This document shows, in pieces, positions 923 to 59,848 of a stretch of DNA of 64,000 nucleotides (its first letter is position 1; each line of letters starts with the position of its first letter). The position numbers were made by a program, and so were the translations under genes. Source of the stretch: Gyromitra esculenta (lineage: Eukaryota > Ascomycota > Pezizomycetes > Pezizales > Discinaceae). Location of the stretch: positions 1,178,001 through 1,242,000 of the forward strand of contig JBCAML010000017.1 of the NCBI GenBank assembly GCA_038503075.1. The letters run 5' to 3'. The notes under the pieces are model-generated. The model ran no database searches. It was given only the letters and a program-made list of their open reading frames with translations, and was not told where the DNA came from.

Positions 923-957
923 TTCAACCAGAGTCGCCTAGTGACCCTGCTCTGGTT
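913..957 (+). promoter_or_regulatory. -1 ribosomal frameshift signal, element A
   Basis: TTTAAAC at 913-919 is positioned in the gag frame as T TTA AAC followed at once by the gag stop TAG (920-922). Slipping back one base puts the ribosome in the pol frame, which is open from here into the protease. Six bases after the heptamer an inverted repeat AACCAGAG (926-933) / CTCTGGTT (950-957) forms a stem. The loop can fold into a smaller hairpin GTCGC/GTGAC. The same layout is at 6391-6435 and 15984-16028, with a compensated stem change in the latter. Function is inferred. Confidence 0.82.
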
Positions 958-3900: not shown

Positions 3901-5014
3901 TGAAATTCTCGTAGAGCCTGTGGAATCCCGTGAACACTCTCGTCGCTCGGTTCTTTATTCAAGTAGCACTGCTCATCTCGGGGGATACCTGAGAGCTTGA
4001 TAGAAAACCTCGCTCCTTGAGAATGCAATACCACCGTCAACGCTGAACAAACGGCAGAACTCTATCTTCAAAATGTCTGGAAGCTCCAAGGATTACCTTC
4101 CCATATTACTTCTGATAGAGGAACGCAATTTACCGCCAAGTTTTGGAAACACCTCTGCCAGCGTTTGAACATTTCTGCTCGTATGTCAACGTCATTTCAC
4201 CCAGAAACGGATGGTCAAACCGAGCGCCTCAACGCCGTTATGGAACAGTATCTTCGTTGCTATGTTTCTTACCAACAAGACGACTGGGTGAAATGGTTAC
4301 CAATCGCTGAGTTCGCTGCCAATAACCAGGAATCAGCCAGTACTAAAGCCACACCTTTTTTCGCCAACTATGGCTACCACCCTCGTTTTGATACTTCTGT
4401 CGTTTCCAATGATCGTTCCCCACAGACCCTTGACGCCAACCTCTTTGCTCTGAAGATGGAAGAACTTAGAGACTTCCTCCGAATACAGATGAGAACAGCT
4501 CAAGACATTTTCGAGACCAGTACCAACCGACACCGTACCCCTGCTCCCTCATTTAAAATCAATGACCAAGTCTTCGTGTCCATGAAGAATATGAGGACAA
4601 CTAGGAATTCGAGGAAGTTAGACTGGAAATGGAGTGGCCCCTTTTCTGTGAAAAGGATAATATCTGCGCATGCCTATGAAATTGACCTTCCAAGATCAAT
4701 GAAATATCACCCTGTGTTCCACGTCTCGTTGATCAAAGCAACTCCCATGGACCCAATCCCCCGGCCAACTTATTCAACCGCCTCCCTCTATCCAAGTTAA
4801 TAATCACGAAGAATATCTTGTCGAAGATATACTGGACTCTCGCCTCCATCGGAGAAGACTCCAATACTTAGTCGAATGGACAGGGTATGCTTTGCCCACA
4901 TGGGAACCAGCAGAATACCACGAAGGGACAGAGGCAGTAGATGTTTTCCACCTACGCTATCCGCATAAGCCGAAGAAGGGCCTAACTAGTGTTCGCAGGA
5001 GCTCACGACTATAA
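920..5014 (+). pseudogene. Gypsy element A: pol (protease-RT-RNaseH-integrase-chromodomain), multiply broken
   Basis: Polyprotein of the chromovirus in fragments. Visible in order: aspartic protease DTGAS (about 1105), reverse transcriptase from about 1740, RNase H (FVESDASD near 2610), zinc HHCC of integrase (HHCC region near 3310-3430), the DDE core, and a C-terminal chromodomain (about 4810-4960). Lesions: a one-base shift near 1670, a CGA to TGA type stop at 3432-3434 in the last Cys pair of the zinc domain, a 410-bp solo LTR at 3613-4022, and another one-base shift near 4770. The RT catalytic motif, AYLDDILIY in the intact copy, reads AYLNDILIY here, so the first catalytic Asp of the pair is lost. 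The copy cannot be autonomous. Confidence 0.92.
3613..4022 (+). mobile_element. Solo LTR, Gypsy family 1, inserted in pol of element A
   Basis: A 410-bp family-1 LTR beginning TTTCATGGATGG and ending CTCCTTGAGA, in the same orientation as element A. It interrupts the pol sequence exactly: the base run CCCCTGCA continues after the LTR as ATACCACCGTC, as in the uninterrupted copy at 8450. The 5-bp flanks are CTGCA (3608-3612) and ATGCA (4023-4027), a target duplication with one substitution. TATA-like GTATATAAG lies near 3750, and TTAAGCAACGTCTTC, the segment matching the primer-binding site, near 3800. A solo LTR forms by LTR-LTR recombination. Confidence 0.93.
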
Positions 5015-5026
5015 GGGAGGGGGTAC

Positions 5027-5439
5027 TTTCGTGGATGGTTGTCGTATTGTTTGGTTAGTTGTATGGGTGTTTAGTTGCGGTTGCTTTGTTGTTTGTTCTA
5101 TACGGTTCCCTTGGTTTCCTTTACAATGAGTCATACGTTTGTCATCAGGGAGATGGATTATGAGTATATAAGCGAAGGGATTCCCCCTCTTGTTGTACTT
5201 TTCCTTATTCTTTCTTTAAGCAATGTCTTCTATTGTACACTCTTGTATTCTACAAATACAAACCTCGGTTATACCTCATAACCTTACGCTGTCGCCGTTC
5301 TCAAGTCCTCTATACTTGACCCCTCCGTAGAGCCTGTGGAATCTCGTAAACACTCTTGTCGCTTAGTTTTCTCTTCAAGTAGCACTGCTTATCTCGGGGG
5401 ATACCTGAGAGCTTGGAGACAAAACCTCGCCCCTTGAGA
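5027..5439 (+). mobile_element. 3' LTR of Gypsy element A (family 1)
   Basis: A 413-bp LTR starting TTTCGTGGATGG right after the polypurine tract AAGGGAGGGGGTAC at 5013-5026, and ending CCCTTGAGA. Immediately after it (5440) the sequence continues in the middle of the pol gene of element D on the opposite strand. The LTR end is therefore the boundary of A's insertion into D. The expected second copy of the target site GGTGA (5440-5444) and A's 5' LTR lie left of the window. Confidence 0.92.
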
Positions 5440-6435
5440 GGTGAGGGCATTGAGGCCACGGTAGTCCACGCACAGACGAAGGGATCCGTCAGGTTTGGCA
5501 GCGAAGAGGACTGGGGAGCCGGCAGAAGAAGAACTTGCACGGATAAAGCCTTTTTCCAGATTGTCTTCGATGTATTTTTTCAAGACCAGAAGTTCATCGC
5601 GAGACATACCATAGAGAGGTCCAAACGGTGGTTCTTTGCCTTCTTGCAGGGTGATTTTATGATCGTAGGGTCGACGAGGGGGGAGTCCTTGAGCTTTAGC
5701 CTTGTCGAACATGTCCAGGTACTTGTGATACTCAGCAGGTATTCTTTGTCTCCATTCCTCTTTAGTGGTTTTGCTATCGAGGACTCTGTTTATCTCATAT
5801 AGAGACATTGAGTAGACTTGAATACCCTTTTTTCTGGCAAGCATGCGGAAACTGGCGGCACCGATAAAGGCGGCGTTGAGCTTAGTCGGGGGCGGGATGG
5901 CGGCGACGGAAACAATAGGTTGTTTGGGAGCACAATGGGTGGTGCAGAATTCAGAGTTGAATTCAATGCTTTTATTGGCGAATTGTAGGTGGACGTCATG
6001 GAGTTTCATCCACGGGATACCGAGCACTAGGGGGTAATGTCCTAGTTTGGTGACGAAGAAGGGAGCTTTCTCGTTGTGTTGTTGGATAGAAAGCTCTAAG
6101 TGACAAAGGTTGGTGATATCTCCCGAGGCAATTGTTCGGCCGTCAATGACTTCTAATTGGCGGGGAGTTTTAAGGGGAGACAATGGTAGGGAATGGTGAC
6201 GCACAAAGTTTTCATCAATGAAAGCGAACCCTGAGGCTCCAGTGTCAAGAAGTGCGTGTGTTTTTATAACTTTATTTTGGTGGGAAAGGCTACATGAAAC
6301 TACAAAATGTTCCCCATCCAAATTATCCTCCACACACACATCCGACACTGAGAACCCAGAAATAGAGAACGCTGACAAAGGAAAAAATGAAACCAGAGCA
6401 GGGTCACATGGCGACTCTGGTTGAACTAGTTTAAA
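5440..6435 (-). pseudogene. Gypsy element D: N-terminal part of pol, cut by insertion of element A
   Basis: Minus-strand pol of a second chromovirus copy, entered by -1 frameshift from gag at 6435-6429. It encodes the aspartic protease (LLDTGASGFAFID) and the start of reverse transcriptase ([26 protein letters not shown] region), intact as far as it goes. It stops abruptly at DYRGLNALT because element A's 3' LTR begins at the next base. The remaining two thirds should lie to the left of the window beyond A. There is no ATG at the protease start (the first in-frame candidate there is TTG), consistent with expression as Gag-Pol. Confidence 0.9.
6391..6435 (-). promoter_or_regulatory. -1 ribosomal frameshift signal, element D
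   Basis: On the minus strand TTTAAAC (6435-6429) directly precedes the gag stop TAG (6428-6426). It is followed by the inverted repeat AACCAGAG (6422-6415) / CTCTGGTT (6398-6391). Stem arms are the same as in element A, while the hairpin loop differs (CAT instead of CTA), so the paired parts are kept and the loop drifts. Confidence 0.82.
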
Positions 6436-7673
6436 GACTCAACTGAGTCTGCTGCATCGAAGGCGGAAAAACGAGGTGGCAAAGGCGGTGGAAAGACAGA
6501 GGAAGCTGGAGGAGCAGCGGGGGCATTAGTAGCGGCTCCCCTCATGGTAGGGCGTTTGGAGGCGGAGGGGCAGTTGGAGAAGATGTGTCCTTCTCCCGCG
6601 CAGAACAGACAGCGGTTGTTGGTTTGTCTCCATGTTTTTTCTTCGGGCGATAATTTTCTTCTCCCGTTGATCTGAACATAGCGTTGTTCAGGAGCAGGGC
6701 GGGAGGTAGAGGTTCGACCGAAGGATAGGTCCATGGGGACAAGCCCTCCTGGGGCGAAGGATGAGGAGGCAGGGGTGAAGGCAGCGGGGGCGGCAGCGGG
6801 AGCGGTGAACTGTCCCATGGTGTTACGGGCATTGTTCTTCTTCTCCTCTCTTCTTGCTCGGATACGGTTATCCAAGCGGAGGAGGAAGGCACAGAGAGAG
6901 GGGAAGGTAGTGGGGAAGTCGGCTACGGTCACTACGGCTTCCTTTAGCTCGTCCGACATTCCGAATTCCAAGGCATCGTTCTTTGCTGACTCGTCGTAGT
7001 TCAATCGTCCCATGATTCGCTGAAAGTCGGCAAGGTAAGCAGAGAAGTCTCGCTTCCCTTGTCGGAGTTGGTGTAGCTCGCGACGAGCTGTTCCGAGTGG
7101 GTCGGGGTCTCCGAAGGCGGTTTCCAGGGCGGTGATCAATTCGGCGGCGTTGTTCCAGGTAGTAGTCCCGTCAGGGAGGACAGAGTGGCGGATCTGCTCG
7201 AGGGCGGCTCCCTCAAGGCGGCTGATAGCATACAATATCATATTGTTGCTATTGGAGAAGCGGTCGGCGTTAACCGAGAGTTTTGATCTGAGTTGCAAAA
7301 CAAACCCAGGAAGTTTATCGCGAGACCCATTGAATTTATCTGGGTCAGGCATCTTATCCGAGCGTCCTCCTTGAGTGTGAGCAGGAGGGGGTGGTGGCGA
7401 TGGTGCGGGTGGTGGGGGGACGACATTTTGGAGGCGGGCGATTTCCGCTTCGGCTGCCTGCAACTGTGATTGGCAGGTATTGAACCTAGCGGTCATGTTG
7501 TTCCTTTCTTGAGTGGCTTCCTCAAGTTGTAGGTCTGCGTAGGTGAGGTTGTCTACTCGCTGTTGGTAGTGCGAGCGGATTTCCTCGTAGGCGGAGGCGA
7601 GGTCGGCATTGGCGGCGGCTTGGAAATTCTCAAAAGTGGGGAAGGTCCAGGGGGCGGGAGCGGGGTTGCTCAT
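6426..7673 (-). CDS. Gypsy element D: Gag polyprotein (intact)
   Basis: Retrotransposon Gag of 415 aa if started at the ATG at 7673 (MSNPAPAPWTF). An in-frame ATG further upstream at 7736 lies inside the LTR and is unlikely to be used. Layout: an N-terminal helical segment rich in Ala/Gln/Glu, a Pro-rich linker (PPPPAPSPPPPP), a capsid-like core (LPGFVLQLRSKLSVNADRF through QGKRDFSAYLADFQRIMGRL), a Pro/Ala spacer, then a single CCHC zinc knuckle CLFCAGEGHIFSNC near the C-terminus. It ends at TAG 6428-6426 behind the slippery site. About 86 percent similar by eye to the Gag of element C. Confidence 0.93.
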   Translation of the reverse strand: MSNPAPAPWTFPTFENFQAAANADLASAYEEIRSHYQQRVDNLTYADLQLEEATQERNNMTARFNTCQSQLQAAEAEIARLQNVVPPPPAPSPPPPPAHTQGGRSDKMPDPDKFNGSRDKLPGFVLQLRSKLSVNADRFSNSNNMILYAISRLEGAALEQIRHSVLPDGTTTWNNAAELITALETAFGDPDPLGTARRELHQLRQGKRDFSAYLADFQRIMGRLNYDESAKNDALEFGMSDELKEAVVTVADFPTTFPSLCAFLLRLDNRIRARREEKKNNARNTMGQFTAPAAAPAAFTPASSSFAPGGLVPMDLSFGRTSTSRPAPEQRYVQINGRRKLSPEEKTWRQTNNRCLFCAGEGHIFSNCPSASKRPTMRGAATNAPAAPPASSVFPPPLPPRFSAFDAADSVESLN

Positions 7674-7730
7674 GGTGACGTTGGAAATAGACGAGTATTG
7701 GTAGAGGGTGTAGATAGGGAAGCAACGTAA

Positions 7731-8141
7731 TCTCAAGGAGCGGGAATTTCGTCAAGCTCTCAGGTATCCCCCGAGATAAGCAGTGCTACTTGAACGAGAA
7801 ACCAACGACAGGAGAAGGTACGAAGATTCTACAGGCTCTACTAATGGTTCAAGTTATGATGACTTGAAGGCGGCGACAGCGGAAGATTACGAGGTGTAAC
7901 CTGAGTTTGTATTTGCGAGATACAGTGAGTGTACAATAGAAGACGTTGCTTAAAGAAAGAAGAAGGAAAAGTACAAGATAAGGGGAACCCCTTCGCTTTA
8001 TATACCACGTTCCAACCCTTTCGATGACAAAGACATGACTCATTGTAACGAATAACCCATAGAAACACAAAGAACACCAACGAAATCCGACAACCATGTA
8101 CCCATGTACCTAACCGATCAACATAACAACCATCCATGAAA
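7731..8141 (-). mobile_element. 5' LTR of Gypsy element D (family 1) with self-complementary PBS
   Basis: A 411-bp LTR on the minus strand. Its start (8141) abuts the pol gene of element E; CAACG at 8142-8146 is the predicted target site, whose partner lies outside the window. Its end (CTTGAGA, 7731) is followed by TT and ACGTTGCTT (7728-7720). This is complementary to AAGCAACGT in the LTR itself rather than to a tRNA 3' end (no TGG). A TATA-like TATATAAAGC box lies near 7998-8007. Confidence 0.9.
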
Positions 8142-9440
8142 CAACGACATCATGATGCCCCCTCAGCTGGTCACCCAGGACGTGAAAAATCCTTCGAGCT
8201 CATTTCAAGGCATTTTTACTGGCCAAAGATGAGAGAGTATATTGGACGTTATACGCGGAATTGTCATACCTGTCGACGAGCAAAACCAAGCACTCTCGGC
8301 ACCCAAGGCGTCCTGAAACCACTCCCAATCCCTAATCGCCCCTGGGAAGAGCTATCAATGGACTTCGTTACCGGCCTCCCAGAATCCAACGGCTTTGATG
8401 CTATTATGGTTGTGGTAGATCGACTCTCGAAGATGCGGCACCTTATCCCGTGTAATACAACTGTCAACGCCGAGCAAACAGCCGAACTCTATCTCCAAAA
8501 CGTATGGAAACTTCACGGACTACCTTCCCATATCACCTCCGATAGAGGAACGCAGTTCACCGCTAGGTTTTGGAAATATCTCTGTCAACGTCTTAACATT
8601 TCCGCCCGTATGTCAACGTCCTTTCACCCGGAAACGGATGGTCAAACCGAGCGTCTCAATGCTGTCATGGAGCAATATCTTCGTTGCTATGTTTCGTACC
8701 AACAAGATGACTGGGCTAAATGGTTACCCATTGCCGAGTTCGCTGCTAACAACCAGGAATCGGCCAGTACTAAGGCCACCCCCTTTTTCGCCAATTACGG
8801 TTATCATCCTCGCTTTGACACTTCCATCGTCCCTAACGACCGTTCCCCGCAAACCCTTGATGCCAACCTCTTTGCTTCAAAGATGGAAGAACTTAGAGAC
8901 TTCCTTCGAATGCAGATGAGAACGGCCCAAGATGTTCACGAGACTAGTACCAATCGATACCGTACTCCTGCCCCTTCGTTCAAAGTCGATGACCGAGTCT
9001 TCGTGTCCATGAAGAATATGAGGACCACCAGGAATTCGAGGAAACTAGATTGGAAATGGAGTGGCCCCTTTCCTATAAAAAGGATAATCTCGGCATACGC
9101 CTACGAAATAGACCTGCCAATATCAATGAAATACCATCCGGTATTTCATGTTTCACTAATCCGAGCAGCTCCTACCGACCCGCTCCCTGGTCAGATTATT
9201 CCGCCGCCCCCCCCTGTTCAAGTTAATGACCACGAGGAATATCTCATCGAAAATATATTGGATTCTCGCCTCCATCGGGGAAGACTTCAATATTTGGTTG
9301 AATGGACGGGGTATGCTTTGCCTACATGGGAACCTGCGGAGTATCACGAAGAAACGGAGGCAGTAGACGCGTTTCACCAAAGATATCCGAGTAAGCCGAA
9401 GGAAGGTCTGGTTAGTGTTCGCAGGAGCTCACGGCTATAA
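8142..9440 (+). pseudogene. Gypsy element E: C-terminal pol (integrase and chromodomain), 5'-truncated by element D
   Basis: Plus-strand reading frame covering the integrase zinc domain (HHDAPSAGH and CHTC), the DDE core (FVTGLP, ITSDRGTQFT and FHPETDGQTE segments), and a chromodomain (EYLIENILDSRL through QYLVEWTGYALPTWEPAEYHEE). It ends in RRSSRL and TAA. The frame is intact over its whole length but begins in mid-protein, at the codon for Gln of LQRHHD, exactly where D's 5' LTR ends. E is therefore the oldest of the three stacked copies; its 5' LTR, gag and RT should be left of the window. Confidence 0.92.
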
Positions 9441-12338: not shown

Positions 12339-15300
12339 TTATAGCCGTGAGCTCCTGCGAACACTAACCAGACCTTCTTTAGGTTTACCCGGATATTGTT
12401 GGTGAAAGACATCCACCGCTTCAGTCTCCGTATGGTAATCAGCTGGTTCCCATGTAGGTAAGGCATAACCTGTCCATTCCACCAGGTATTGTAGTTTTCC
12501 GTGGCGAAGGCGAGAATCTAGGATACTCTCGACAAGATATTCTTCATGATCGTTGACTTGGATCGGAGGTGGAGGTGGAATAATCTGGCCCGGGAGTGGG
12601 TCAACAGGAGCAGCTCTGATCAGTGAAACGTGAAATACCGGATGGTATTTCATAGACGATGGCAGGTCTATCTCATAGGCATATGCAGAGATTATTCGTT
12701 TCACAGGGAAAGGACCACTCCACTTCCAGTCTAATTTCCTTGAATTCCTAGTCGTCCTCATGTTCTTCATAGATATGAAGACACGGTCATTGACTTTGAA
12801 TGAAGGGGCGGGGGTACGGTGCTGATTAGCACTGGTCTCGAAAATATCTTGTGCCGTCTTCATTTGGACTCGAAGGAAGTCTCTAAGTTCTTCCATCTTA
12901 GAGGCGAAGTCATTGGCATCGAGGGTCTGAGGGGAGCGGTCATTGGGGATGATGGAAGTATCAAAGCGAGGATGGTACCCATAGTTGGCGAAGAAGGGTG
13001 TAGCTTTCATACTGGCGGACTCTTGGTTATTAGCAGCGAACTCCGCAATAGGTAGCCATTTTGTCCAGTCGTCTTGTTGGTAAGAAACATAGCATCGAAG
13101 ATATTGTTCCATAACGGCATTAAGACGTTCGGTTTGACCATCTGTTTCTGGGTGGAAGGACGTTGACATCCGAGCGGAAATATTCAGGCGTTGGCAAAGA
13201 TATTTCCAAAACTTAGCGGTAAACTGCGTTCCTCTATCCGAAGTAATATGGGAGGGTAGTCCGTGGAGTTTCCAAACATTTTGGAGATAGAGTTCGGCTG
13301 TTTGCTCGGCGTTGACGGTTGTATTGCACGGGATAAGGTGCCGCATCTTCGAGAGTCGATCCACTACAACCATAATAGCATCAAAGCCGTTGGATTCTGG
13401 GAGACCGGTAACGAAGTCCATTGATAACTCTTTCCAGGGGCGGTTAGGGATAGGGAGTGGTTTCAGGATGCCTTGGGTACCGAGGGTACTTGGTTTTGCT
13501 CGCCGACATGTATGACAGTTTCGCGTATAACGGCCAATGTACTCTCTCATCTTTGGCCAATAGAAATGCCTTGAAATGAGTTCGAAGGATTTTTCACGTC
13601 CTGGGTGGCCAGCTGAGGGGGCGTCATGATGTCGTTGTAGAATGAGGAGGCGAAGAGGGTCATGATCCGGGATATAGAGTTTTTGCCGGTAATAAAGGCG
13701 GTTGTTGACTTCAGTACAGTCACCTAGGGTGATCTCCTTGGATTGTCGTTCACCATTTTTAAGTGCTAGGAGGATTTTTTGTGGGAACGGGTCAGCATTA
13801 TATCCAAGGTTCATTAAAGTATCGAGGGAGGCATCCAATTCAGCGGGTTCATTTGATAAAGAACCCGAAAACAAACTCAACTTAGGATCAACGTTCTTCT
13901 CTTTTAAGACTACTTGGTGTTGGTGTCTTAGTCTTTCATCCCCTTCTTCAGGGAGATCTCCTGATCTCCGAGTCAGTGCGTCCGGTTTTCCTCCTTGTAC
14001 CCCTGGTCTATAGGTAATGACGAAGTCAAAACGTGAGAGGTATTCTGCCCATCTGACCTGTCGTCGATTAAGTTGCTTGGTGGTCATGAAATATTCCAAG
14101 TTCTTATGATCAGTGATAACCGAGATGGGTAGTTCAGATCCTTCAAGCTCTGGCCTCCATTCCTCGAAACAGCGTATAATAGCGAGAAGTTCCTTATCAT
14201 AGATCTCGTAGTTGCATTCAGCTGGTGAATGCTTCTTGGAGAAGAAGGCCACAGGATGGAGTACGCCGTTATCGTCAAGTTGGGAGAGAACACCGCCGGA
14301 GACGAAGTCAGAAGCATCAGATTCTACAAAGATTTTCTTTCGAGGGTCGAAGTGGATGAGAACGGGGGCTTTAGTAAAGGCATCCTTCAGGGCTTCAAAT
14401 GCGAGTTCTGCTTCGACCGTCCATTCAAAGACAACACCTTTTCTTGTAAAAGCAGTAAGGGGGGCGGCTAATCGGGAAAACCCTAGAATGAATCGTCGGT
14501 AGAAATTTGCGAACCCAAGAAAGGCTTGTACATCTTTAACTGACTTCGGGCGATTCCAATCCCGGACGGCTTTGAGTTTATCTTCGTCCATTTTAATACC
14601 TTCGGGGGTTAAGATTAGGCCGAGATATTTGATGGATTGTACATGGAACTCGCACTTCTCGGGTTTGAGAAGGATGTTATTAGCTTTTAAGGCATTGAGG
14701 ACCTGTCGGACGTGTACCTTGTGTTCGGCGAGAGTGTCGCTGTAGATAAGGATATCGTCGAGGTAAGCCGTGCAAAAGAGATCCAAATATTCTCGGAGAG
14801 AATCATTAACGAAGCGCTGGAAGGTACCGGGGGCATTGGTAAGACCGAAAGGCATCACCATATATTCGTATAAGCCATACCGGGTTTGGAAAGCTGTTTT
14901 CCACTCTTCTCCCTCGGCAATACGAATTTGATGGAAGCCGTCGCGGAGGTCTAGCTTCGAGTACCATTGAGCCTTTGCAAGGCGATCCAGAGTTTCTTTG
15001 ACCAGGGGGGATGTATATCGATCTTTAACTGTGAGAGCGTTAAGGCCACGGTAATCGACACAAAGGCGGAGGGAGCCATCGGGCTTGGCGGCGAAGAGGA
15101 CAGGAGAGCCGGCGGAGGAGGAACTGGCACGGATAAAGCCTTTTTCCAGGTTGTCCTCGATATACTTCTTAAGGACTAGAAGTTCATCTCGTGACATGCC
15201 ATAGAGAGGGCCAAACGGGGGTTCCTTGCCTTCTTGAAGCGTGATACGGTGGTCATAAGGGCGACGGGGGGGTAGTCCTTGAGCTTTCGCTTTGTCGAAC

Positions 15301-16028
15301 ATGTCCAGGTATTCATGATACTCTACGGGTATTCTTTGTCTCCATTCTTCCTTAGTAGTTCTACTATCAAGGACCTTATTTATCTCATAGAGAGACATCG
15401 AGTAAACTTGAATACCCTTTTTCCTGGCGAGCATGCGGAAGCTTGCGGCACCAATAAAGGCGGCATTAAGCTTAGCTGGAGGTGGGATAGCGGCGGCGGA
15501 AACAATAGGTTGCTTGGGGGCACAGTGGGTGGTGCAGAATTCAGAGTTGAATTCAATGCTTTTGTTGGCGAATTGTAAGTGGACGTCGTGGAGATTCATC
15601 CAGGGAATGCCGAGTACTAGGGGGTAATGTCCTAGTTTGGTGACAAAGAAGGGAGCTTTCTCGCTGTGTTGTTGGATGGAAAGCTCCAAGTGGCAAAGGT
15701 TAACAATATCTCCAGAAGCAATCGTTCGGCCATCAATAACTTCTAACTGGCGTGGGGTTTTGAGGGGAGATAATGGTAGGGAATGGTGACGCACGAATCT
15801 TTCGTCAATGAATGCAAATCCTGAAGCTCCGGTATCTAGAAGCGCATGTGTTTTGATAGTTTTATTTTGGTGGGTGAGACTACAAGAAACTACAAAGTGT
15901 TCCCCATCCAAGTTATCCTCCACACACACATCCGATACTGAAAACCCAGAAATAGAAAAAGCAGACAAAGACGAAAAATTGGGAACCTGAGCAGGGTCAC
16001 TTAGCGACTCAGGTTGGACTAGTTTAAA
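12339..16028 (-). CDS. Element C: Pol polyprotein (PR-RT-RNaseH-IN-chromodomain), via -1 frameshift
   Basis: 1229 codons from the slip site. Domains in order: aspartic protease (LLDTGASGFAFID), reverse transcriptase with catalytic AYLDDILIYS, RNase H ([13 protein letters not shown] and [12 protein letters not shown]), integrase zinc finger (HHDAPSAGH...CHTC), DDE core ([29 protein letters not shown]), and a chromodomain (YLVESILDSRL...LVEWTGYALPTWEPADYH), then RRSSRL. A C-terminal chromodomain defines chromoviruses and is thought to guide integration to modified histones. No ATG lies at the protease start; the frame is open back to TTT AAA CTA at the end of gag, so expression as Gag-Pol by -1 slippage fits. 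No lesion seen. Confidence 0.96.
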   Translation of the reverse strand, partial: FKLVQPESLSDPAQVPNFSSLSAFSISGFSVSDVCVEDNLDGEHFVVSCSLTHQNKTIKTHALLDTGASGFAFIDERFVRHHSLPLSPLKTPRQLEVIDGRTIASGDIVNLCHLELSIQQHSEKAPFFVTKLGHYPLVLGIPWMNLHDVHLQFANKSIEFNSEFCTTHCAPKQPIVSAAAIPPPAKLNAAFIGAASFRMLARKKGIQVYSMSLYEINKVLDSRTTKEEWRQRIPVEYHEYLDMFDKAKAQGLPPRRPYDHRITLQEGKEPPFGPLYGMSRDELLVLKKYIEDNLEKGFIRASSSSAGSPVLFAAKPDGSLRLCVDYRGLNALTVKDRYTSPLVKETLDRLAKAQWYSKLDLRDGFHQIRIAEGEEWKTAFQTRYGLYEYMVMPFGLTNAPGTFQRFVNDSLREYLDLFCTAYLDDILIYSDTLAEHKVHVRQVLNALKANNILLKPEKCEFHVQSIKYLGLILTPEGIKMDEDKLKAVRDWNRPKSVKDVQAFLGFANFYRRFILGFSRLAAPLTAFTRKGVVFEWTVEAELAFEALKDAFTKAPVLIHFDPRKKIFVESDASDFVSGGVLSQLDDNGVLHPVAFFSKKHSPAECNYEIYDKELLAIIRCFEEWRPELEGSELPISVITDHKNLEYFMTTKQLNRRQVRWAEYLSRFDFVITYRPGVQGGKPDALTRRSGDLPEEGDERLRHQHQVVLKEKNVDPKLSLFSGSLSNEPAELDASLDTLMNLGYNADPFPQKILLALKNGERQSKEITLGDCTEVNNRLYYRQKLYIPDHDPLRLLILQRHHDAPSAGHPGREKSFELISRHFYWPKMREYIGRYTRNCHTCRRAKPSTLGTQGILKPLPIPNRPWKELSMDFVTGLPESNGFDAIMVVVDRLSKMRHLIPCNTTVNAEQTAELYLQNVWKLHGLPSHITSDRGTQFTAKFWKYLCQRLNISARMSTSFHPETDGQTERLNAVMEQYLRCYVSYQQDDWTKWLPIAEFAANNQESASMKATPFFANYGYHPRFDTSIIPNDRSPQTLDANDFASKMEELRDFLRVQMKTAQDIFETSANQHRTPAPSFKVNDRVFISMKNMRTTRNSRKLDWKWSGPFPVKRIISAYAYEIDLPSSMKYHPVFHVSLIRAAPVDPLPGQIIPPPPPIQVNDHEEYLVESILDSRLRHGKLQYLVEWTGYALPTWEPADYHTETEAVDVFHQQYPGKPKEGLVSVRRSSRL
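15984..16028 (-). promoter_or_regulatory. -1 ribosomal frameshift signal, element C
   Basis: Minus strand: TTTAAAC (16028-16022), stop TAG (16021-16019), then the stem AACCTGAG (16015-16008) / CTCAGGTT (15991-15984). Relative to elements A and D (AACCAGAG/CTCTGGTT) one base pair is changed on both sides (A-U to U-A), a compensatory change. The inner hairpin GTCGC/GTGAC (one G-U) with a 3-base loop is also kept. Confidence 0.87.
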
Positions 16029-17290
16029 GACTCATTTGAAGAGCCTGGGGCCTCAAGGGCAAAGAACTGTGGTGGGAGCGGAGGAGGAGGAAGTGAGGAA
16101 GCGGGTGGCGTGGCGGCGGCAGCGGGGTTGGTGAGAGCACCCCTCATAGCAGGGCGTTTATTGGCAGAGGGGCAGTTGGAAAATATATGACCCTCGCCAG
16201 CACAAAACAAGCAGCGATTGTTATTTTGTCGCCAAGATTTTTCTTCGGGGGAGAGTTTTCTTCGTCCGTTGACCTGGACGTAGCGTTGATCCGGGGCAGG
16301 GCGAGAGGTGAAAGTGCGACCGAAGGATAGATCCATGGGGGCGAGCCCTCCAGGGGTAAACGAGGAGGCAGGGACGAAGGCAGGTGCGGCAGCGGGGGCG
16401 GAAAACTGTCCCATGTTGTTGCGATTATTCCCTCGTTTCTCCTCCCGTCTAGCACGAATACGATTATCAAGGCGGAGGAGTAAGGTGCACAGGGGCGCGA
16501 AACGAGTGGGGTAGTCGGCGATGGTGACAACTGCTTCTTTGAGATCCTCTGACATCCCATGGTCGAGGGCATCAACCTTGGCTGCCTCGTCATAATTCAG
16601 TCGTCCCATGATACGCTGGAAGTCGGCGAGGTAGGCAGAGAAATCTCGCTTGCCTTGTCGTAGCTGATGGAGCTCGCGACGAGCGGAACCGAGAGGGTCA
16701 GGGTCTCCGAAGGAGGTTTCCAAGTGGGCGATGAGTTCGGCGGCATTGATCCAGGAGGTAGTGCCATCGGCGAGGACAGTATGACGGACTTGTTCCAGGG
16801 CGGCTCCTTCCAGACGGTTGATGGTGTAGAGAACCATATTGTTCTCAGATGCGAAACGGTCAGCGTTAACTGAGAGCTTTGAGCGTAATTGTAGCACAAA
16901 GCCGGGAAGTTTTTCTCGGGACCCGTTGAATTTCTCTGGGTCCGGCATTCTTTCTGAACGGCCTCCTCTATCGTTATTAGCTGGGGGTGCTGGGGGTGCA
17001 GGGGGTGCGGGAGGAGCGGCAGAGCGAAGGCGGATGATTTCTTCGTTAGCTGTTTGTAGGTTGGCCGTGAGGTTTCCTACAATCAGTTGGGCGTTGTTCC
17101 GTTCTTGGGTCATTGTTTCGAGTTGGAGGTCGAGGACTTGATTGTCTTCCTGCTGCATTCTAAAGTGTTCTTCGAGCATGCGGTAGAAGCTGATGGGATC
17201 AGCACGCATTTGCATGTTGAACTGTTCCATTGATGGATAAGTCCAGGCGGGGACAGCGGGGGTTGATTCCGACATTGTGGCGTCGGTCAT
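16019..17290 (-). CDS. Element C: Gag polyprotein
   Basis: 423 aa (start at 17290; a second Met five codons on, MSESTPA, is an alternative). Predicted coiled-coil N-terminal region (HFRMQQEDNQVLDLQLETMTQERNN area), a Pro/Ala linker (PAPPAPPAPPA), a capsid-like core with LPGFVLQLRSKLSVNADRF, and one CCHC knuckle CLFCAGEGHIFSNC about 60 residues before the end. It terminates with SNESLN and TAG, the last three codons being TCT TTA AAC, the slippery site. Intact. Confidence 0.96.
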   Translation of the reverse strand: MTDATMSESTPAVPAWTYPSMEQFNMQMRADPISFYRMLEEHFRMQQEDNQVLDLQLETMTQERNNAQLIVGNLTANLQTANEEIIRLRSAAPPAPPAPPAPPANNDRGGRSERMPDPEKFNGSREKLPGFVLQLRSKLSVNADRFASENNMVLYTINRLEGAALEQVRHTVLADGTTSWINAAELIAHLETSFGDPDPLGSARRELHQLRQGKRDFSAYLADFQRIMGRLNYDEAAKVDALDHGMSEDLKEAVVTIADYPTRFAPLCTLLLRLDNRIRARREEKRGNNRNNMGQFSAPAAAPAFVPASSFTPGGLAPMDLSFGRTFTSRPAPDQRYVQVNGRRKLSPEEKSWRQNNNRCLFCAGEGHIFSNCPSANKRPAMRGALTNPAAAATPPASSLPPPPLPPQFFALEAPGSSNESLN

Positions 17291-17328
17291 GGGGGGGGGG
17301 AGGGGCTGGGTAGAGGGTGTGGATAAGG

Positions 17329-17337
17329 AAGCAACGT
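17329..17337 (-). other. Self-complementary primer-binding site of element C
   Basis: Minus strand ACGTTGCTT, two bases downstream of the 5' LTR end. It is the exact complement of AAGCAACGT found in every family-1 LTR about 50-60 bp after the TATA box, where transcription could begin. No tRNA 3'-end complement (starting TGG) is present. Tf1/sushi-type elements prime reverse transcription with the 5' end of their own mRNA, and that is the inferred use here. Confidence 0.72.
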
Positions 17338-17339
17338 AA

Positions 17340-17747
17340 TCTCAAGGGGCGAGGTTTTGTCTTCAAGCTCTCAGGTATCCCCCGAGATGAGCAGTGCTAC
17401 TTGAAGGGAAAACTAAGCGACGAGAGTATTCACGATGTTCCACAGGCTCTACGAAGTGTTTTCAAGTATGGAGGACTTGAGGGCGGCGACAGCGTAGGAT
17501 TATGAGATATAACCGAAGGTTGTATTGTGAAATACAGGAGTGTACTATAGAAGACGTTGCTTAAAGAGAAAAGAAGGAAAAGCACAACAACAGGGAAATC
17601 GACATATATATCCCATTCCAACTCGCTCAATGACAAAGACTTGACTCACTGCAACGGAAACCTAAAGAAACACAAAGAATAACAACGTAACACAATAGCC
17701 TTGTACCCTTATACCCGACGAACCAACGAAAACAGTTATCCGTGAAA
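17340..17747 (-). repeat. 5' LTR of element C
   Basis: 408 bp, TTTCACGGATAAC to CCCCTTGAGA on the minus strand; promoter region GGGATATATATGTCGATTTC. Differs from the 3' LTR only in that block (about 17590-17608), where the usual TATATAAGCGAAGGGATTTCCC reads differently and is 5 bases shorter. Confidence 0.95.
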
Positions 17748-32008: not shown

Positions 32009-34853
32009 ATGGGTTCCCTCAACCCTGACCACGGTATCGAGATCCTCGACATCCGTGTCAACAAAGCCAGCCTCACCAACTCGCTTAAGGACGAGATCCT
32101 CTTTGGCCTCCAGAAGCCCACGGGGGAGAAGACCCTCCCCACCCTGCTCCTCTACAACGAACGAGGCCTCAAGATCTTTGAAGAAATAACCTACAACGAC
32201 GCCTACTATCTAACCAACACCGAAATCTCAATCCTAGAGCAATATGCCGAAAACATGGCCGCTCGAATCCCCGACGGTGGGATAGTGGTAGAACTAGGGA
32301 GTGGGTAAGTCCCCCCTACCATGTCGCCCTTTACCACACTATTCCACACCTACTAACATATCACCCCCTCTCTAGAAACCTCCGCAAAGTCAACATCCTC
32401 CTGCATGCCCTCGACCGTCTCGGTAAACACATAACCTACTACGCCCTCGACCTCGACCGCTCCGAGCTCGCCCGCACTCTCCACGCCGTGCCCCTCGGGA
32501 CCTTCAAAAATATCCGCTGCGTCGGTCTCCACGGCACCTACGACGACGGACGCGCTTGGCTCGCGTCCAGCACCGACACAAGCCGCTGCATCCTCTGGCT
32601 CGGATCTTCAGCCGGCAACTTCAGCCTCAGCGAGATTGCGTCGTTCCTGCGCGAATGGTCGGCTGATGCGCTGCGGGCTGGGAAACCGGACCGCATGCTG
32701 GTTGGTCTGGACGGGTGCAAAGACGGCGGCAAGGTCAAGCTTGCGTACAATGATCCTGAGGGGCTGACGGAGGAGTTTATACTCAATGGGCTCTGGAACG
32801 CTAATAAGATACTTGGCAGCGAGATGTTCGTGCCCGGAGATTGGGAGTATGTAGGGGAGTGGAACGCGGACGAAGGGCGCCACCAAGCATATTACGGGGC
32901 GCTGAAGGATATAGCCTTCACCGGCGACTTTGAGGGCGTCACTGTGGTTAAGGGCGAACGTATCAATGTTGAATACAGCTACAAATTCGATAACGACGAG
33001 TCCCGACTGCTTTGGTCTCAGTCAGGACTTATGGAAGGAGCCCAATGGTCTAACCCCGCAGGGGACTACTGTATAAACCTCCCTCCCCCCCTCTCTCCCT
33101 CCCTCTCTCCCTCCCTCTCTCCCTCCCTCTCCCCCTCCCTCCCTCTCCTCAAATCTACACCCCTAATATTGCTGTATAGACCTCCACATGCTCTACAAAC
33201 CAACATTCACATTCCCGCTCGGTCCACCAGCAACCTACGCCCCCAGTCCCACCCCGACCCTCGCCGAATGGCGCCAGCTCTGGAAAGCATGGGACATGGC
33301 CACCCTCGCAATGATACCGAAATCCAAGCTCCTATCCAAGCCCATCGATCTGCGAAACCCATGCATCTTCTACCTGGGCCACATCCCCACATTCCTCGAC
33401 ACGCATCTCGCGCGCGCCACAAGCGGGGACCTAACGGCGCCGGGACAGGCGTACCAGGATATCTTCCAGCGCGGCATCGACCCGGATGTGGCGGACCCGA
33501 CGGTATGTCACTCGCACAGCGCGGTGCCGGAGCTGTGGCCGGCGCTGGACGAGATTTTGGCGTTCGCGGGACGGGTGAGGGCGCGGGTGGAGAGTCTGTA
33601 TGGTGGCAGTGGCAGTGGGATGAGCGGCAAATTGCGCAGAGCGCTATGGCTGGGGTTTGAGCATGAGGCGATGCACCTGGAGACGCTACTATACATGTTG
33701 CTACAGAGCGAAGATACGCTCCCGCCGCCGGGCGTTACGGTGCCGGATTTTGTGTCTGGGAGGACGTGGGAGCGGCGGCGGAAGGAGGAGGAGGGAGACA
33801 CAAAGTGGGTCGAGATCCCGCGGACGGTGGTGGACGTGGGGATGGATGATCCAGAGGACGGACAGGAGACGGGGGGCTACTATGGATGGGATAACGAAAA
33901 GCCGCTGCGCAGGGGGATTGAGGTCTCGCCGTTCAAAGTCAGAGCATACCCAATTACGAACGAAGAATATGCGCAGTATCTACATGCTACTTCGTCTACT
34001 ACTGCTACTCCTGCATCATGGACTGCACCCACGAGCAGCGCAAAGACCGGGACGAAAGAGTCGCTGGAACACTTCATGGCTTCAAACAGCGTTAAAACGG
34101 TATTCGGCCCCGTCCCCATCTCGCTCGCAGCAGACTGGCCGGCCATCGCATCGTACGATGAACTGGCTGGCTGCGCAGCATGGATGGGAGGCCGCATTCC
34201 CACCGCCAACGAAGTAAGGGCTGTGTACAACTACGTTGAGGCCATCGAGGCCGCCGAAAAAACACTCACAAAACGGGTCGATGCTGTGAACGGGTAGATT
34301 ATCCTCTCCTTCTCTCTCCTCCCCTCCCATATGCGGTAGCTAATGATGCAGCCACTTGATCAACAATGGAGTCCGCGAGTCCCCGCCACCTGCTGATTCA
34401 CTGTTTGCGGACCTGCGCGGACACAACGTGGGGTTCCAGTTCTGGCACCCAACGTCGGTCCGCTTCGCAGGGGGTAAGGTGCCGCTTGGCCGCGGTGCTA
34501 CTGGGGGCGCGTGGGAATGGACTAGCACTGTCTTGGAGCCCCATGAAGGGTTTAAAGCGGGAGAGTTGTATCCGGAGTATACTGGTGAGCTTTTTCGTGT
34601 GCGGTGCTGTGGCGAGGAGGGTGCTGACTTATGGGCAGCGGATTTCTTTGACGGGAAGCATAATATCGTGTTGGGGGGAAGCTGGGCTACGCATCCGAGG
34701 ATTGCGGGGAGGAGGAGCTTGTGAGTGTTATATCCCTTTCGGTGGTGGTGGCAGGTTGTGTGGTGGCTTACAGTAATTGGGGGTAGTGTGAACTGGTATC
34801 AGCGCAACTATAGGTATACCTGGGCTACTGCGAGGATTGCTGCTATTGAGTAG
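32009..34853 (+). CDS. egt1: Ergothioneine biosynthesis protein Egt1 (EgtD/EgtB fusion)
   Basis: Six exons (32009-32304, 32376-33070, 33180-34293, 34352-34584, 34639-34720, 34787-34853) total 2487 nt, 828 aa, in phase, close to known fungal Egt1 lengths. Residues 1 to about 330 are the histidine-specific SAM methyltransferase (GIVVELGSG, LWLGSSAGNF, LVGLDGCKD) making hercynine. From about 340 a DinB-like part carries the iron ligands HX3HXE as HEAMHLE (near residue 490), and the last 270 residues form the FGE-sulfatase fold (GGRIPTANE, GGAWEWTS, NIVLGGSWATHPRI, NWYQRNY). This part is the sulfoxide synthase joining hercynine to cysteine. The product is cytosolic. Intron 2 contains a CTCCCTCT microsatellite. 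Start ATG follows ACTGCA in a CA-rich leader. High confidence from full-length agreement. Confidence 0.96.
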
Positions 34854-44988: not shown

Positions 44989-46717
44989 TCTTCACACTAG
45001 CTTTATCTGTCAGACATGGAATTCCTCATGGATATTTACAGGGAAGAAAGAAGAGTCATGCGCTACATCTTAGATGCACCTAGAATACAGCTAATTTATT
45101 ATTTCTGTCGGATAGATGATTATACTTATTATTATCTCAAGGGCTATCTTGGTCCAAGGATTGCTCCAAGGTACTAGTAATTAGATCGCAGCTTTAATGT
45201 CATCATTAGCTTTGTAATTATCCTCCTTATGTTCTACAATATATAATCCCTATTTAGTGAGGGGTTGACATACCACCGTAGGAAATATACATTGAGAAAT
45301 AAGTTACCTACCAGAGCTACCATGCTCTAGTGATTAGCACTGGAACACCAATTTACTGAAAACGAAACCTAGCTGCGAGCCGCGTGCCATATGAAATAAC
45401 CACATCGCCCTGGCTTGTGTTACTTGCAATTGTTACCCGGAAGTAAATCACCACTCCCCCAGTCCGCCAAGAGCCTGATGCATCCACAATAGACTTCCCA
45501 AGTATTTATTCGAAGGAGGATAATCTCGATGTAGTTACTGGCGTGACTTCTATGAACTAAAATGGGGCCTAGGACAAAAATGCCACCGAGAGGGATCGTG
45601 TTCAACAATCGAGATACCTTACGCTCAAAGAGATAGATTTCTACCGGGAGGCCACAAGACAAGCATAGTATATTAGAAAATGATTATCCGCCAATTATCA
45701 TCACTGTAAACCACCTGGGTCTTCGATAATCAAACAAAAAAAAAAGAGATTTGAATTAAATAATACGAGTCGGCTATGTCCATACTGCTAAAGACACAAA
45801 GCCAAATCAAGACCTCTTTCCGTTCCTTTCGCTAGCATCAATAACTAGCGCAGACTCAGTTTGTTGTTGATACCCTCTTGGCCTTATGGTGTCACATCTG
45901 ATCAAGTCCATCACTAGAAGTATACATTGCTAATAAAAAACTAAGTAGGTAGAAAGATCGTGATAAATAAAAAGCTAGGTTTCTATGGACATTAAAGAGG
46001 AGGATGGGAGGATATGGGAGAAACCCGAACGCCCCGTCGCGACGTGTAAACCTGAGCTCTATCATCCGCGAGACACATTGCTAAGCTGAATTGGCCACCT
46101 TAAGTATGGTGTCTCATTGTCAACGTGGGGTATAGATACTAGATATCACTTTGGATATTAGCAGTTTTGCCCCGAAGGCACGTTCGTTGGCCGAGAGGGG
46201 AAAACTAGTGTAGCGGACGGGGATAGCCTCGGATTTTTGCATTGAAGTCTGGCTATTGACGATAATCGTTCACTTTATGGATTTACCCTTACGGTCTGTG
46301 GGATACGGGCCGTGCACAAGTTTGGTCAGACGCTGGGATTCATGCACCTAGGCCCTAGGACTAGTGAGTTATCCTGTGCTTTTAAAACCGATGACGCGGA
46401 CGGAATCCAGTCAAATTGCTGCGAGAACCCCTCGCGACATTGATACAGCAGACCCGCTTAAATACAGCCAAGACTTAACCGAGAATATGGGAATAAGGGC
46501 TCGTTGCATGAAAGTTATTCTCAGCACTTGAAGGTTGGCATCTCTACTAGTATCTACTCTACGCTCGGATGCTAGCCCTTAAACCCCTAAAGACTCTTCC
46601 TTGAACATAGTTCAAAGAGTTTACATTACAGCCATACAGTTTCATGACTCATGACAGCGGACAACAATCACTTCTTTCTTCGTCCCCTCGCCTGAGGCCA
46701 GGAAGACAAGGAAGGAA
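44989..46717. other. Intergenic, nothing recognised
   Basis: 1.7 kb between the hypothetical remnant and the U2 gene. Short open frames only; no repeat or RNA signature found. Confidence 0.55.
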
Positions 46718-46984
46718 GTCGCATCAACCAGAGACAGTGCAATACTGGTGACACAGTAGGACCGAGGACGTGCAAGCACGGAGCCCCGACCCCGGAATCA
46801 CAAAAATAAGTATAATAAATAAATTGTTCCGTAGAACGATTTCAGATATTAAACTATATATAGAACCATGTTAGCGATTGCAGAGAGAGAGAGAGAGAGA
46901 GAGAGAAAACAGTGAAGGGAGATGGGAACACACCTGAAAAGAACAGATACTACACTTGATCTAAGCCAATTGGCAAAGAGAGCT
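46718..46984 (-). ncRNA. U2: U2 snRNA gene containing a GT-AG intron
   Basis: The minus strand reads CTCTTTGCCAATTGGCTTAG then ATCAAGTGTAGTATCTGTTC, the invariant U2 5' region, with GTAGTA that pairs with intron branch points. After TTTTCAG (ending 46934) the RNA is interrupted by 80 nt (46933-46854) starting GTGTGT and ending ATATATAG. U2 resumes with TTTAATATCTGAAAT. Joined, stem IIa re-forms (UUUCAG/CUGAAA), followed by a IIb-like GUUC-UACG-GAAC hairpin, an Sm-like AUUUUUGUG, and a terminal stem-loop ACCAG(UAUUGCACUGUCU)CUGGU as in other U2 RNAs. A TATA box lies about 33 bp upstream. Mature length about 187 nt; the exact ends are estimates. Confidence 0.93.
46854..46933 (-). other. Spliceosomal-type intron inside U2 snRNA
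   Basis: 80 nt with 5' GTGTGT, a CT dinucleotide tract (46908-46882), branch consensus GCTAAC (branch A near 46871) and 3' ATATATAG. It sits between CAG and TTT, a proto-splice context, at the 5' edge of the stem IIa loop. All features match the window's mRNA introns; it has no group I/II or tRNA-intron character. Confidence 0.88.
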
Positions 46985-47015
46985 GCTGAGAGAAGAGGGG
47001 AGCGGGGTGGCAGAG

Positions 47016-47025
47016 GTATATATAC
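47016..47025 (-). promoter_or_regulatory. TATA box of the U2 gene
   Basis: GTATATATAC, about 33 bp before the predicted 5' end of U2, in an otherwise GC/AG-rich upstream region. Fits polymerase II transcription of U2. Confidence 0.65.
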
Positions 47026-47534
47026 TGCTGGAGACCTTGGCGCCCAGAGATATTTCGCCGCCGAAGACTAGCCGAATGCATTTAGGATTTCGCCGACCAC
47101 CAATCGTTCTGACAAGGCTCTCGAACTCCAAGACTTTTGCCAAGCCGTCCCTTTCCGGGAGCTCTAGACTATTGGTTTGCTTCGGTAATACTGCTTGGGG
47201 TCATGCCTGCCGGAAACTGTAAGCTGGATACAGGCGATTAGTAACACTAAGCGCGGGGTAATAACCTGAACTTCCTTGAACATTGTTATTCTTCATCTAT
47301 GACGTGTGACTATCGAACCTCTGGGCTGTTGGTATATTCCTCAAGCTCTTGGGTAACGATGCACATAAAACGCGGAAGAACGAAGATGGATAACCACCAT
47401 CATGGCCTTGAAATTAAACGAGAGAATAGTAATACATCGATCGCAATTGATTAAAATAGACAAGCTTAAAAAGGCAAAACACCCAAGAGAATAAAATCAA
47501 ATATACCAGCTTCCCTCATCGCCAACACCCTTAG
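47026..47534. other. Intergenic, nothing recognised
   Basis: Upstream of U2 and 3' flank of the 196-aa gene. The open frame at 47007-47222 overlaps the U2 promoter and has no features. Confidence 0.5.
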
Positions 47535-56318: not shown

Positions 56319-57035
56319 TTACACCTGTCCCAACTTCCACAATCCAGATGCGTATACAATATCGTATCTCTTTTGTGCTGTTTCAAGCCATTCTACAACC
56401 ACAACAACCAAACGGTCACAAAATTCAAGTGCGTTTTGAATTTGCGTGAAACCATCTTTAACCCAATCCATGAATATTTTGTCATCGGGATAATTCTGAT
56501 ATATGCGATCTAGCGCAGCGGAACGAGCGATAACCATTTTGATCTTCTCCTTTCGATATATACTTTCCCCTACCAATTCTTTTATAATGTAATATGGATC
56601 GTCGTCGATACTTTTTAGTCCAGCCTCCTGGAGACTATTTTCTAGCCTCAACCGCACTGATTCAAAGATATGCTCTTCTTCATTTTTCATTAGTACCTTA
56701 AAAAATGGATTCTGCGAAGCTCTTATTATCCCTTCTACGTTCATTTGAGTATTGTCACCGTCACTATCTGGAAGTAAATCATAGATATACAATTCACTAT
56801 AACATTGCTTGATTGCATTTGCCTTAGGATCGTAATCTCCGAAATAAGGACTGCCAGGTTTTGTTCGAAGAATTTCCCGGACATCAAATGCCTGCTTTAT
56901 GATTATTTGCAGATTTATAAAGTGCTCCCTAGGTTCAAAGTGAAAAATGCAGTCCATCGCGATACAGAGTTGTTCAACTTTTTCGTTATTAAAAACTCCA
57001 TATTTGGACCATCCTTTAGGTAGAGTATTCGACAT
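56319..57035 (-). CDS. Orphan protein family, paralog 2 (238 aa)
   Basis: Intact single exon. Homologous to 48842-49573 over the full length (TLPKGWSKYGVFNNEKVEQL; SPYFGDYDPKANAI; NPFFKVLMKNEEEHIFESVRLRLENS; GLKS). Helical, no signal peptide, membrane segment or catalytic motif. Both genes are on the minus strand 7.5 kb apart, separated by LTRs and repeats. Divergence is high, so the duplication is old or selection has been relaxed or diversifying. Confidence 0.82.
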   Translation of the reverse strand: MSNTLPKGWSKYGVFNNEKVEQLCIAMDCIFHFEPREHFINLQIIIKQAFDVREILRTKPGSPYFGDYDPKANAIKQCYSELYIYDLLPDSDGDNTQMNVEGIIRASQNPFFKVLMKNEEEHIFESVRLRLENSLQEAGLKSIDDDPYYIIKELVGESIYRKEKIKMVIARSAALDRIYQNYPDDKIFMDWVKDGFTQIQNALEFCDRLVVVVVEWLETAQKRYDIVYASGLWKLGQV

Positions 57036-58771
57036 TGTAATTGAGATTTTGTAGGAGGAGAGATTTTCTTTTGCGTTTTACTTGGGAGGTTCGAAAATAG
57101 TGGATTTTTGAGTTAAAACTGTACCGGTAGGGCTTAAACTCTCTATTTATGCTACTGAAATCTAACTACTCCCATTGAATATATTATATGCTTTCCTTTA
57201 ATGAATGCACTAAAACATGATACTCTGCAAGAGTGTTGCCAGTGCAAAAAGATATACTTGCATGTTAGGCTGCTACGCATCGAAAGGCTCGGAGTTAATA
57301 GCGTAAACTTCCCACGTTGAATAAAGGGCCTTCGAGCCCATTCCTTATATTGCCTAGTTCCATGCGTCCTTCGTCGAAGTCACTTGGTACTTAGTTTCCA
57401 AACCATCTAACTCCCAATTTTATCAAGCACTTAGATTTGTATGATAACGCGAAAGCTCCATAATCCACCTTCTGAAGGCCTTACCGAGGGCCTTCTAGAT
57501 CTGAGAGGCGTCTAGAATTCCTCGCTCTTTGCAACTATAGCTAGCGATCTCCCAGATCAGCCCTTGGCCCAGATTCGATCTTTCTATTACACTAGACCTC
57601 TTTGACCAGTGAGTAAAGATGAGGTGTAGGGTTTATGTATACTTTGTTTGGCGCGTACGTTACGTTGAGGGGGTCATCGAGGATCTTTAAATTATCTAGT
57701 GTCCTGATGTATTATTTTAGATATTGCTATAAACATTAGCATTATCTACTAAGAATTGGTATTACTCCGTAGAAAGGCTTAGTGATATCATTATAGACGA
57801 AATAGTGATTTAATGGACCTATTGATAGAATTTAGAGTGCTTAAGCTTTTGCTGTAGATGTTGGTCACCTTGGAGAACTCGAACGCTTTGGCATATTATG
57901 AGTGCTGGCACCCACGTTGCGTTTTAAGTGGCCTATAGATCGCTGGCGCTGGTACATTGAAATTGAGAGTGGAGAGCCTTTTATGACCCCCTAAATCAGC
58001 GAGGGGAATTGTGTTCAATTAAATATCTCGGATTTACAGAATGGAATACGCATGTTACTTACCGCGATACAGTTAGGACTAACTAGTAGATTTGATCGGT
58101 ATGCATCCTCTAAAGCTGTAAGCACCATCTCAGAACGACTCAGAATGGCTGCGCGACGACACAATTTTTAATAGTAAACATAGTACTAACTTCGTGATCA
58201 TGATAACATAGGAGTTCGCTTTTGTACCCAAACACATTGGGCCGTCTTATTTCTCGTATACTCCAGAGAAGGTTGATCTTTGATCAATTCTGGGATAAAC
58301 TTCGGGCATTCTCAAATGTACTCCGGAGAAGATTTACGCTGGGGCAGTGAAAAATACAGTCCAAGTATCATCAACACCACGAAAAGTATCAAATAGTGGT
58401 GACATCGGATCAGAATCCTTGAGCAACATGCCAGATTTTCGTATAACTCAGGTGGTATCTAAAATACAGATTTTATTTATAGCTCGTCTGTGGTGGTCCA
58501 AGTCCAGAATTCAGAAATCTCACTCGCTTTCAGCACTCCGCGTATATCAACCCTCGGCGTAAAGGTTGGAGGAGAGCTGGAGAGATGCATATGGCTAGTA
58601 ATATATTTTGGATAGTAGATCTGGTTGAGAATTTGGCATGTGGATATTACATCACAGACAATAACGCCGGAGCACGCTTTATAATTATTGAGGCGATAAA
58701 GTACTTCAGTACTCTATAGCACGGAGGCCTCTTGTGTACTGAGGCTCTCTAAGAGCTGTAGCTAGCGAGCA
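57036..58771. other. Intergenic, nothing recognised
   Basis: 1.7 kb AT-rich, only short open frames. Confidence 0.55.
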
Positions 58772-59673: not shown

Positions 59674-59792
59674 GTGTTCGGTCATAGAACGATGAGAATG
59701 AGCCATCCCGTCCGCTCTGGCATATCCAAGCATCGTATCGCCTGGTTAGTACTGCAGTGGGTGACCATGTGGGAATCCCAGGTACTGAACTC
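59674..59792 (+). rRNA. 5S: 5S rRNA gene (119 nt)
   Basis: Shows the 5S signature: CATAGAA after nine bases, CATCCCGTCCGCTCTGG, CCAAGCATCGTAT, GTTAGTACTGCAGTGGGTGACC, and GGGAATCCCAGGTACTG. Terminal helix GUGUUCGGU/ACUGAACUC pairs at eight of nine positions. A T9 run, the polymerase III terminator, follows at about 59801. Dispersed single 5S genes are normal in Pezizomycotina. Length and paired ends suggest it may be functional. Confidence 0.88.
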
Positions 59793-59848
59793 ATGTATTA
59801 TTTTTTTTGGCTGCATCTCGTTTTGTCCAGAAATTTTTTGGAGATAAC

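Follow-up and report, generated by a model that had tools for sequence, protein, structure and literature searches.

We identified four U2 snRNA genes in the 47.1-Mb assembly of Gyromitra esculenta (23 contigs), and consider it very likely that in each of these genes of a filamentous ascomycete the stem IIa loop is split by a spliceosomal intron of the U2 type, and that stem I of the copy on contig C20 holds a second one. The other three copies lie on contigs C8, C1 and C17, the last within the window, the whole stretch of 64,000 nucleotides that was analysed.

U2 genes in the window and in the assembly

A search with the Rfam U2 model (RF00004), the check that the original prediction had proposed, returned a full-length match above gathering at 46986-46713 on the minus strand (model positions 1-192, 105.2 bits against a gathering threshold of 46, E 3.4e-20), and the alignment placed the extra bases in the loop of stem IIa. 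The limits first proposed for the gene, 46984-46718, are only a few bases off, though an extent of about 46987-46719 is probably better. We put the 5' end at A46987, its probable position, because the spacing to the TATA box then resembles that of the U1 genes; the true 3' end of exon 2 may lie a few bases beyond 46719. Read in the direction of the gene, exon 1 ends in TTTTCAG at 46934, the intron runs from GTGTGT to TATATAG, and exon 2 follows with TTTAATATCTGAAA; TTTTCAG and GTGTGT had been noted beforehand together with the 80-nt length, a CT tract and GCTAAC, and all of them are confirmed in the sequence. In the minimum-energy fold of the joined exons six stem IIa pairs form, with IIb, the Sm-like ATTTTTG and the two 3' hairpins also in place, so the proposal that intron removal restores stem IIa is borne out. 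The insertion sits inside the IIa loop, outside the stem itself. It had been described as lying next to the branch-point-pairing region, and it is indeed near, but 'next to' is loose because the intron begins 14 nt after GUAGUA. A hairpin downstream of the gene folds in all four copies (-9.2 to -17.2 kcal/mol) and is a possible 3'-end formation signal. The features of the window are collected in Table 1.

Table 1 Features of the window, in order of subject
Feature	Position	Strand	Basis or remark
Upstream promoter element GGCGCCAAG	47036..47044	-	exact in 4/4 U2 genes
TATA box TATATATA	47017..47024	-	TATA present in 4/4 U2 genes
U2 exon 1: stem I, segment GATCAAGTGTAGTATCTGTTCT, 5' half of stem IIa	46934..46987	-	RF00004 alignment; 5' end inferred
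80-nt GT-AG intron in stem IIa loop	46854..46933	-	sequence reading; site within one base in 3/3 paralogs
5' splice site GTGTGT, fits GTRWGT	46928..46933	-	sequence
(CT)n pyrimidine tract inside intron, 25-nt dinucleotide array	46882..46906	-	sequence
Branch site GCTAAC, branch A 46871, then 17 nt of intron	46870..46875	-	sole RCTRAY in intron
3' splice site TAG	46854..46856	-	sequence
U2 exon 2: 3' half of IIa, IIb, Sm site, two 3' hairpins	46719..46853	-	RF00004 alignment
Sm-like site ATTTTTG	46801..46807	-	read in sequence
Short hairpin 3' of U2 gene, candidate 3'-end formation signal	46682..46707	-	folding
Ergothioneine-synthase-like (Egt1-like) gene, three introns	32012-34841	+	Methyltransf_33, DinB_2, FGE-sulfatase
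Ty3/gypsy-like retrotransposon pieces	910-9437, 12342-17341	both	two open frames with chromodomain beside integrase
Two related open frames, 263 and 252 aa	48842-49633, 56319-57077	-	35% identity over 240 positions; both start near LPKGW
5S rRNA gene	59674-59793	+	85 bits; shares the window with U2

Across the assembly, the RF00004 search, in which the best 46 of 977 candidates were scored, gave full-length matches in all four loci, with 128.1 bits for the C8 copy, 115.9 for C1, 109.5 for C20 and 105.2 for the window. Because only top candidates were scored, we added a separate search for a 22-nt invariant segment of U2. With up to two mismatches allowed, this segment occurs in the 47.1 Mb at exactly these four places, and the reversed control segment has no match in the assembly at the same setting. 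The U6- and branch-site-pairing segment GATCAAGTGTAGTATCTGTTCT is exact in all four copies. An intact intronless U2 gene, the finding of which had been set beforehand as the test to refute the original prediction, was found in the 47.1-Mb assembly by neither the RF00004 nor the motif search; every one of the four copies bears an intron.

When the four copies are aligned in the same orientation, the interruption site is the same within one base. The IIa introns measure 70 nt in C8, 85 nt in C1, 52 nt in C20 and 80 nt in the window, and the (CT)n array of the window intron is absent from the introns of the paralogs. The C20 copy has an additional 108-nt insert in stem I (GCCTTTTG/GTAAGT...TACTAAC...ATACAG/GCTTAG, slashes marking its ends), the removal of which leaves a stem I identical to that of C8 and C1. 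Beyond this genome, viral contigs gave 0 matches to U2, and other genome contigs gave four stretches from three contigs that are titled as bacterial MAGs yet bear U2. The matches in L027, L028 and L029 are 184-192 nt long without a large insert, two of them truncated by the 5' limit of the stretch retrieved, and that in L030 is partial, truncated by the 3' limit. We treat these as distant controls and not as relatives.

Splice signals and probable removal of the inserts

The criteria given for introns of fungal U3 genes, in one part of a published survey, are GTRWGT, RCTRAY and YAG, with 6-36 nt from branch to acceptor (PMC5832005). The donors of all five U2 introns fit GTRWGT, and each intron has a YAG acceptor and one single RCTRAY, with 11-19 nt of intron left beyond the branch A. 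The combination of donor, branch site and acceptor arose in 0 of 20,000 base shuffles for each of the five introns, and with these signals and the RF00004 score of 105.2 bits the original prediction of a spliceosomal intron in a genuine-looking U2 gene stands. For comparison, the introns of the Egt1-like gene in the window fit GTRWGT in one case of three, RCTRAY in two and YAG in all three; for each of them just one in-frame solution exists close to the exon ends that protein alignment indicates, and two have the non-consensus donors GTATAA and GTAGAT. Among the 8000 scored candidates with the most words in common with the Egt1-like exon, two unnamed proteins rank ahead of all named ones; the best named matches are from Sphaerosporella brunnea (65% over 48% of the query) and from Geopyxis carbonaria (57% over 52%), both of the Pezizales, Pezizomycetes. 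The 5.8S/ITS region agrees with this placement.

The most telling sign of removal is the exact position of the IIa introns. In C8, C1 and C20 the junction reads TTTTCAGT/ and /TTAATC, and in the window TTTTCAG/ and /TTTAAT. The window intron is thus shifted by one base at either end, and its spliced junction is identical to that of the paralogs. A slide that leaves the product unchanged makes sense, and is neutral, only if the insert is removed. From these sequences we infer that the inserts of the four U2 genes are U2-type spliceosomal introns that are removed from the mature RNA. By thermodynamic prediction only, stem IIa is present in the minimum-energy fold of all four spliced U2 RNAs, and in the precursors it amounts to 0.00-0.43 of the 6 expected pairs. 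Pairing in cis between the branch site and the GUAGUA of one and the same precursor was rejected as a predicted structure (expected pairs 0.000-0.017).

Alternatively, the insert could be an expansion segment that is retained in the mature RNA. The U2 of Saccharomyces cerevisiae contains a long dispensable insertion and large insertions are tolerated elsewhere in the molecule, and a long loop closed by stem IIa is possible in principle. However, retention is most improbable in view of the donor, branch and acceptor signals in all five inserts, the slide that only removal makes neutral, the range of IIa insert lengths (52-85 nt), the scarcely predicted stem IIa when the insert is present, and the second insert of C20, which splits stem I.

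Integrity of the four genes and other small RNAs

Pairwise identity among the four copies is 88-96% in the exons, 63-75% in the IIa introns, with 7-37 gapped positions, and 55-65% in the sequence 100-300 nt downstream, with 44-82 gapped positions. In the joined exons of the four paralogs 97.1% of 172 cells hold standard pairs, a value reached by 11 of 500 shuffles; three pairs are changed on both sides (reached by 58/500), and the covariation score was reached by 39/500. With four sequences compared, covariation thus lends only modest support. The Sm-like site reads ATTTTTG in three copies and ATTTTTA in C20 (L003); the only copy with an altered Sm site is also the copy with two introns. In the 3' helices, 90.9-100% of cells are paired. 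The outer pair of IIb has been lost from the window copy, the most diverged of the four. The C20 and window copies could be weakening genes, though C8 and C1 bear introns as well.

The promoters of the four genes are alike. GGCGCCAAG is exact at -57 to -59 and TATA stands at -35 to -38 in every U2 copy, and in four of the five U1-like genes the same elements are found at -60 to -63 and -38 to -40, respectively; as GGCGCCAAG is a near-palindrome, it was scored on the opposite strand in L007 (U1-like). The U1-like gene without the shared promoter elements is L009. All four U2 genes are presumably transcribed from this snRNA-type promoter.

We disfavour the reading of the window gene as a pseudogene beside an intact U2, because all copies are interrupted, their exons are conserved while the introns have diverged, and their promoters are common with U1. 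A broader version of this argument, that all four are pseudogenes or minor copies and that the working intronless U2 is absent from the assembly, could appeal to gaps that are possible among 23 contigs and to the weak copies that exist in other snRNA families (the U1-like L009 and the U4-like L016). We regard it as very unlikely: all four promoters are intact, the Rfam scores lie at 105-128 bits, the exons keep both their 88-96% identity and their pairing, the splice signals are maintained while the rest of the introns diverges, and the motif search gives no fifth copy.

Among the other small RNAs of the genome, the matches to U1 (5), U6 (2), U5 (1) and U4 (4) span about the model length with no interruption apparent; the five U1-like matches all fall short of the gathering score of 69.5, the best being 67.3. 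L009 and L016 are diverged and without the standard upstream element, and are probably decaying genes or variants. Three of the four U3 loci (L032-L035) are apparently interrupted after TTTCTATAG, and L032 runs unbroken, which gives a parallel to U2 with intron presence and absence inside a single genome. A GGCYGCTGNGCGNGGGG-like element lies 21-50 nt past the end of the Rfam match in the U4 loci L013, L014 and L015 and the U3 loci L034 and L035, and a weaker match is found in U1 L005; with the motif written after the sequences had been viewed, it is clear in 3/4 U4, 2/4 U3 and 1/5 U1 genes, and may be an snRNA 3'-end signal. In the U2 genes it has 5-6 mismatches, a fit reached by 0, 10, 16 and 5 of 100 shuffles, and because this fit is weak we claim no such element for U2 beyond the hairpin.

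Origin of the introns and possible consequences for U2 supply

The IIa introns all begin with GTRTGT and then have a T/C-rich TTCC stretch, and those of C8, C1 and the window also have a CAAT-GCTRAY core. With these parts in common they look homologous, which would mean that the intron was gained once, ahead of the divergence of the paralogs, and that its register changed once afterwards. The stem I intron, present in C20 and in none of the other three copies, is most simply a later gain; three losses in the other copies would explain it less simply.

The original prediction had ascribed the intron to reverse splicing, the insertion of an excised intron into U2 inside the spliceosome as opposed to another route of gain. 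This is possible, but we are inclined to doubt it. Position speaks for it: both sites belong to U2 regions within or close to the active spliceosome. By counts on the joined sequences, the IIa site is 14-15 nt after GUAGUA, and that in stem I of C20 borders the segment pairing with U6. The same argument has been published for the U6 intron of fission yeast (PMC10484740). However, of the five introns the three that were searched for a source, namely that of the window, the one in stem I of C20 and the IIa intron of C20, the last as 51 of its 52 nt plus upstream exon, match only U2 loci. With no similar sequence outside the U2 genes a donor is not visible; an old donor that had decayed would leave the same absence. 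Exon flanks such as CAG/T in the window and G/G around the stem I intron of C20 are of the ordinary proto-splice type, and equally expected from other routes of gain.

An mRNA-type intron in a U2 gene was reportedly described by Takahashi et al. in 1993 in Rhodotorula hasegawae, which is said to have one 60-bp U2 intron just past the branch-site-pairing domain and an intron-bearing U6 as well. In both cases a spliceosomal intron lies in the 5', conserved half of U2, on the downstream side of the region that pairs with the branch site. In contrast to that basidiomycete yeast, the host here is a Pezizomycete, all four copies are interrupted, the site is the IIa loop and one copy has a stem I intron; both U6 matches are uninterrupted here, unlike the U6 reported for R. 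hasegawae.

The U6 intron of fission yeast has been published together with an argument for its origin by reverse splicing (PMC10484740). Like the U6 introns of fission yeast and other fungi, the U2 introns lie near functionally critical bases of a spliceosomal RNA that would need its own machine to mature (PMC10484740). U6 is made by RNA polymerase III (PMC10484740), whereas the U2 genes here have a U1-like TATA-type promoter. In fungal U3 snoRNA, some genes are described in the survey section cited above as having two introns, and paralogs as differing at times in intron presence (PMC5832005). The U2 introns resemble those of U3 in carrying GTRWGT, RCTRAY and YAG within a structured RNA. However, U3 is not part of the spliceosome and so has no self-dependence, and in this genome U2 is interrupted in 4/4 copies and U3 in 3/4. 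Among the matches listed in the open-licence literature there is no ascomycete U2 intron, which is weak evidence because most subscription papers fall outside that literature. As far as we could check, the Pezizomycete host, the intron in every U2 copy found, the two-intron copy and the sliding are new.

We hypothesize that the snRNA-type TATA promoter would drive U2 transcription to give a capped precursor, which pre-existing U1, U2 and tri-snRNP particles would recognise. The intron or introns would leave as lariats; stem IIa, plus stem I in C20, and the normal U2 of ~188-189 nt would form only after this removal, and the matured U2 would enter the pool that processes the next U2 precursor. 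U2 biogenesis would then be autocatalytic. With all templates interrupted, functional U2 would be made only by U2-containing spliceosomes, and U2 particles would have to be passed on at cell division and into spores, since U2 could not be restarted from the genome by itself. Taken as a whole, that U2 is obligately autocatalytic and particle-inherited since every template is interrupted, and that the second intron of C20 was gained recently, after the split of the paralogs and next to the U6-pairing segment, in a manner consistent with reverse splicing inside the spliceosome, is a reading that we favour with moderate confidence. The dependence of U2 on U2 had been foreseen and follows if splicing occurs. 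The further suggestion that this could autoregulate the level of U2 has the wrong sign: less U2 means less U2 maturation, so that low U2 lowers maturation further, and the result would be positive feedback, the opposite of homeostasis.

How introns enter structured RNAs is a long-standing question, for which snRNA introns have been cited as evidence of reverse splicing, and the four U2 paralogs, with one common intron that has slid and one that is specific to a single paralog, form a natural series on how introns enter and shift in such RNAs. Annotation that expects an unbroken snRNA gene can overlook an interrupted one. For the cell, an essential RNA of the spliceosome whose genes all need the spliceosome poses a testable bootstrapping problem, in which a cell depleted of U2 would be unable to recover by transcription alone.
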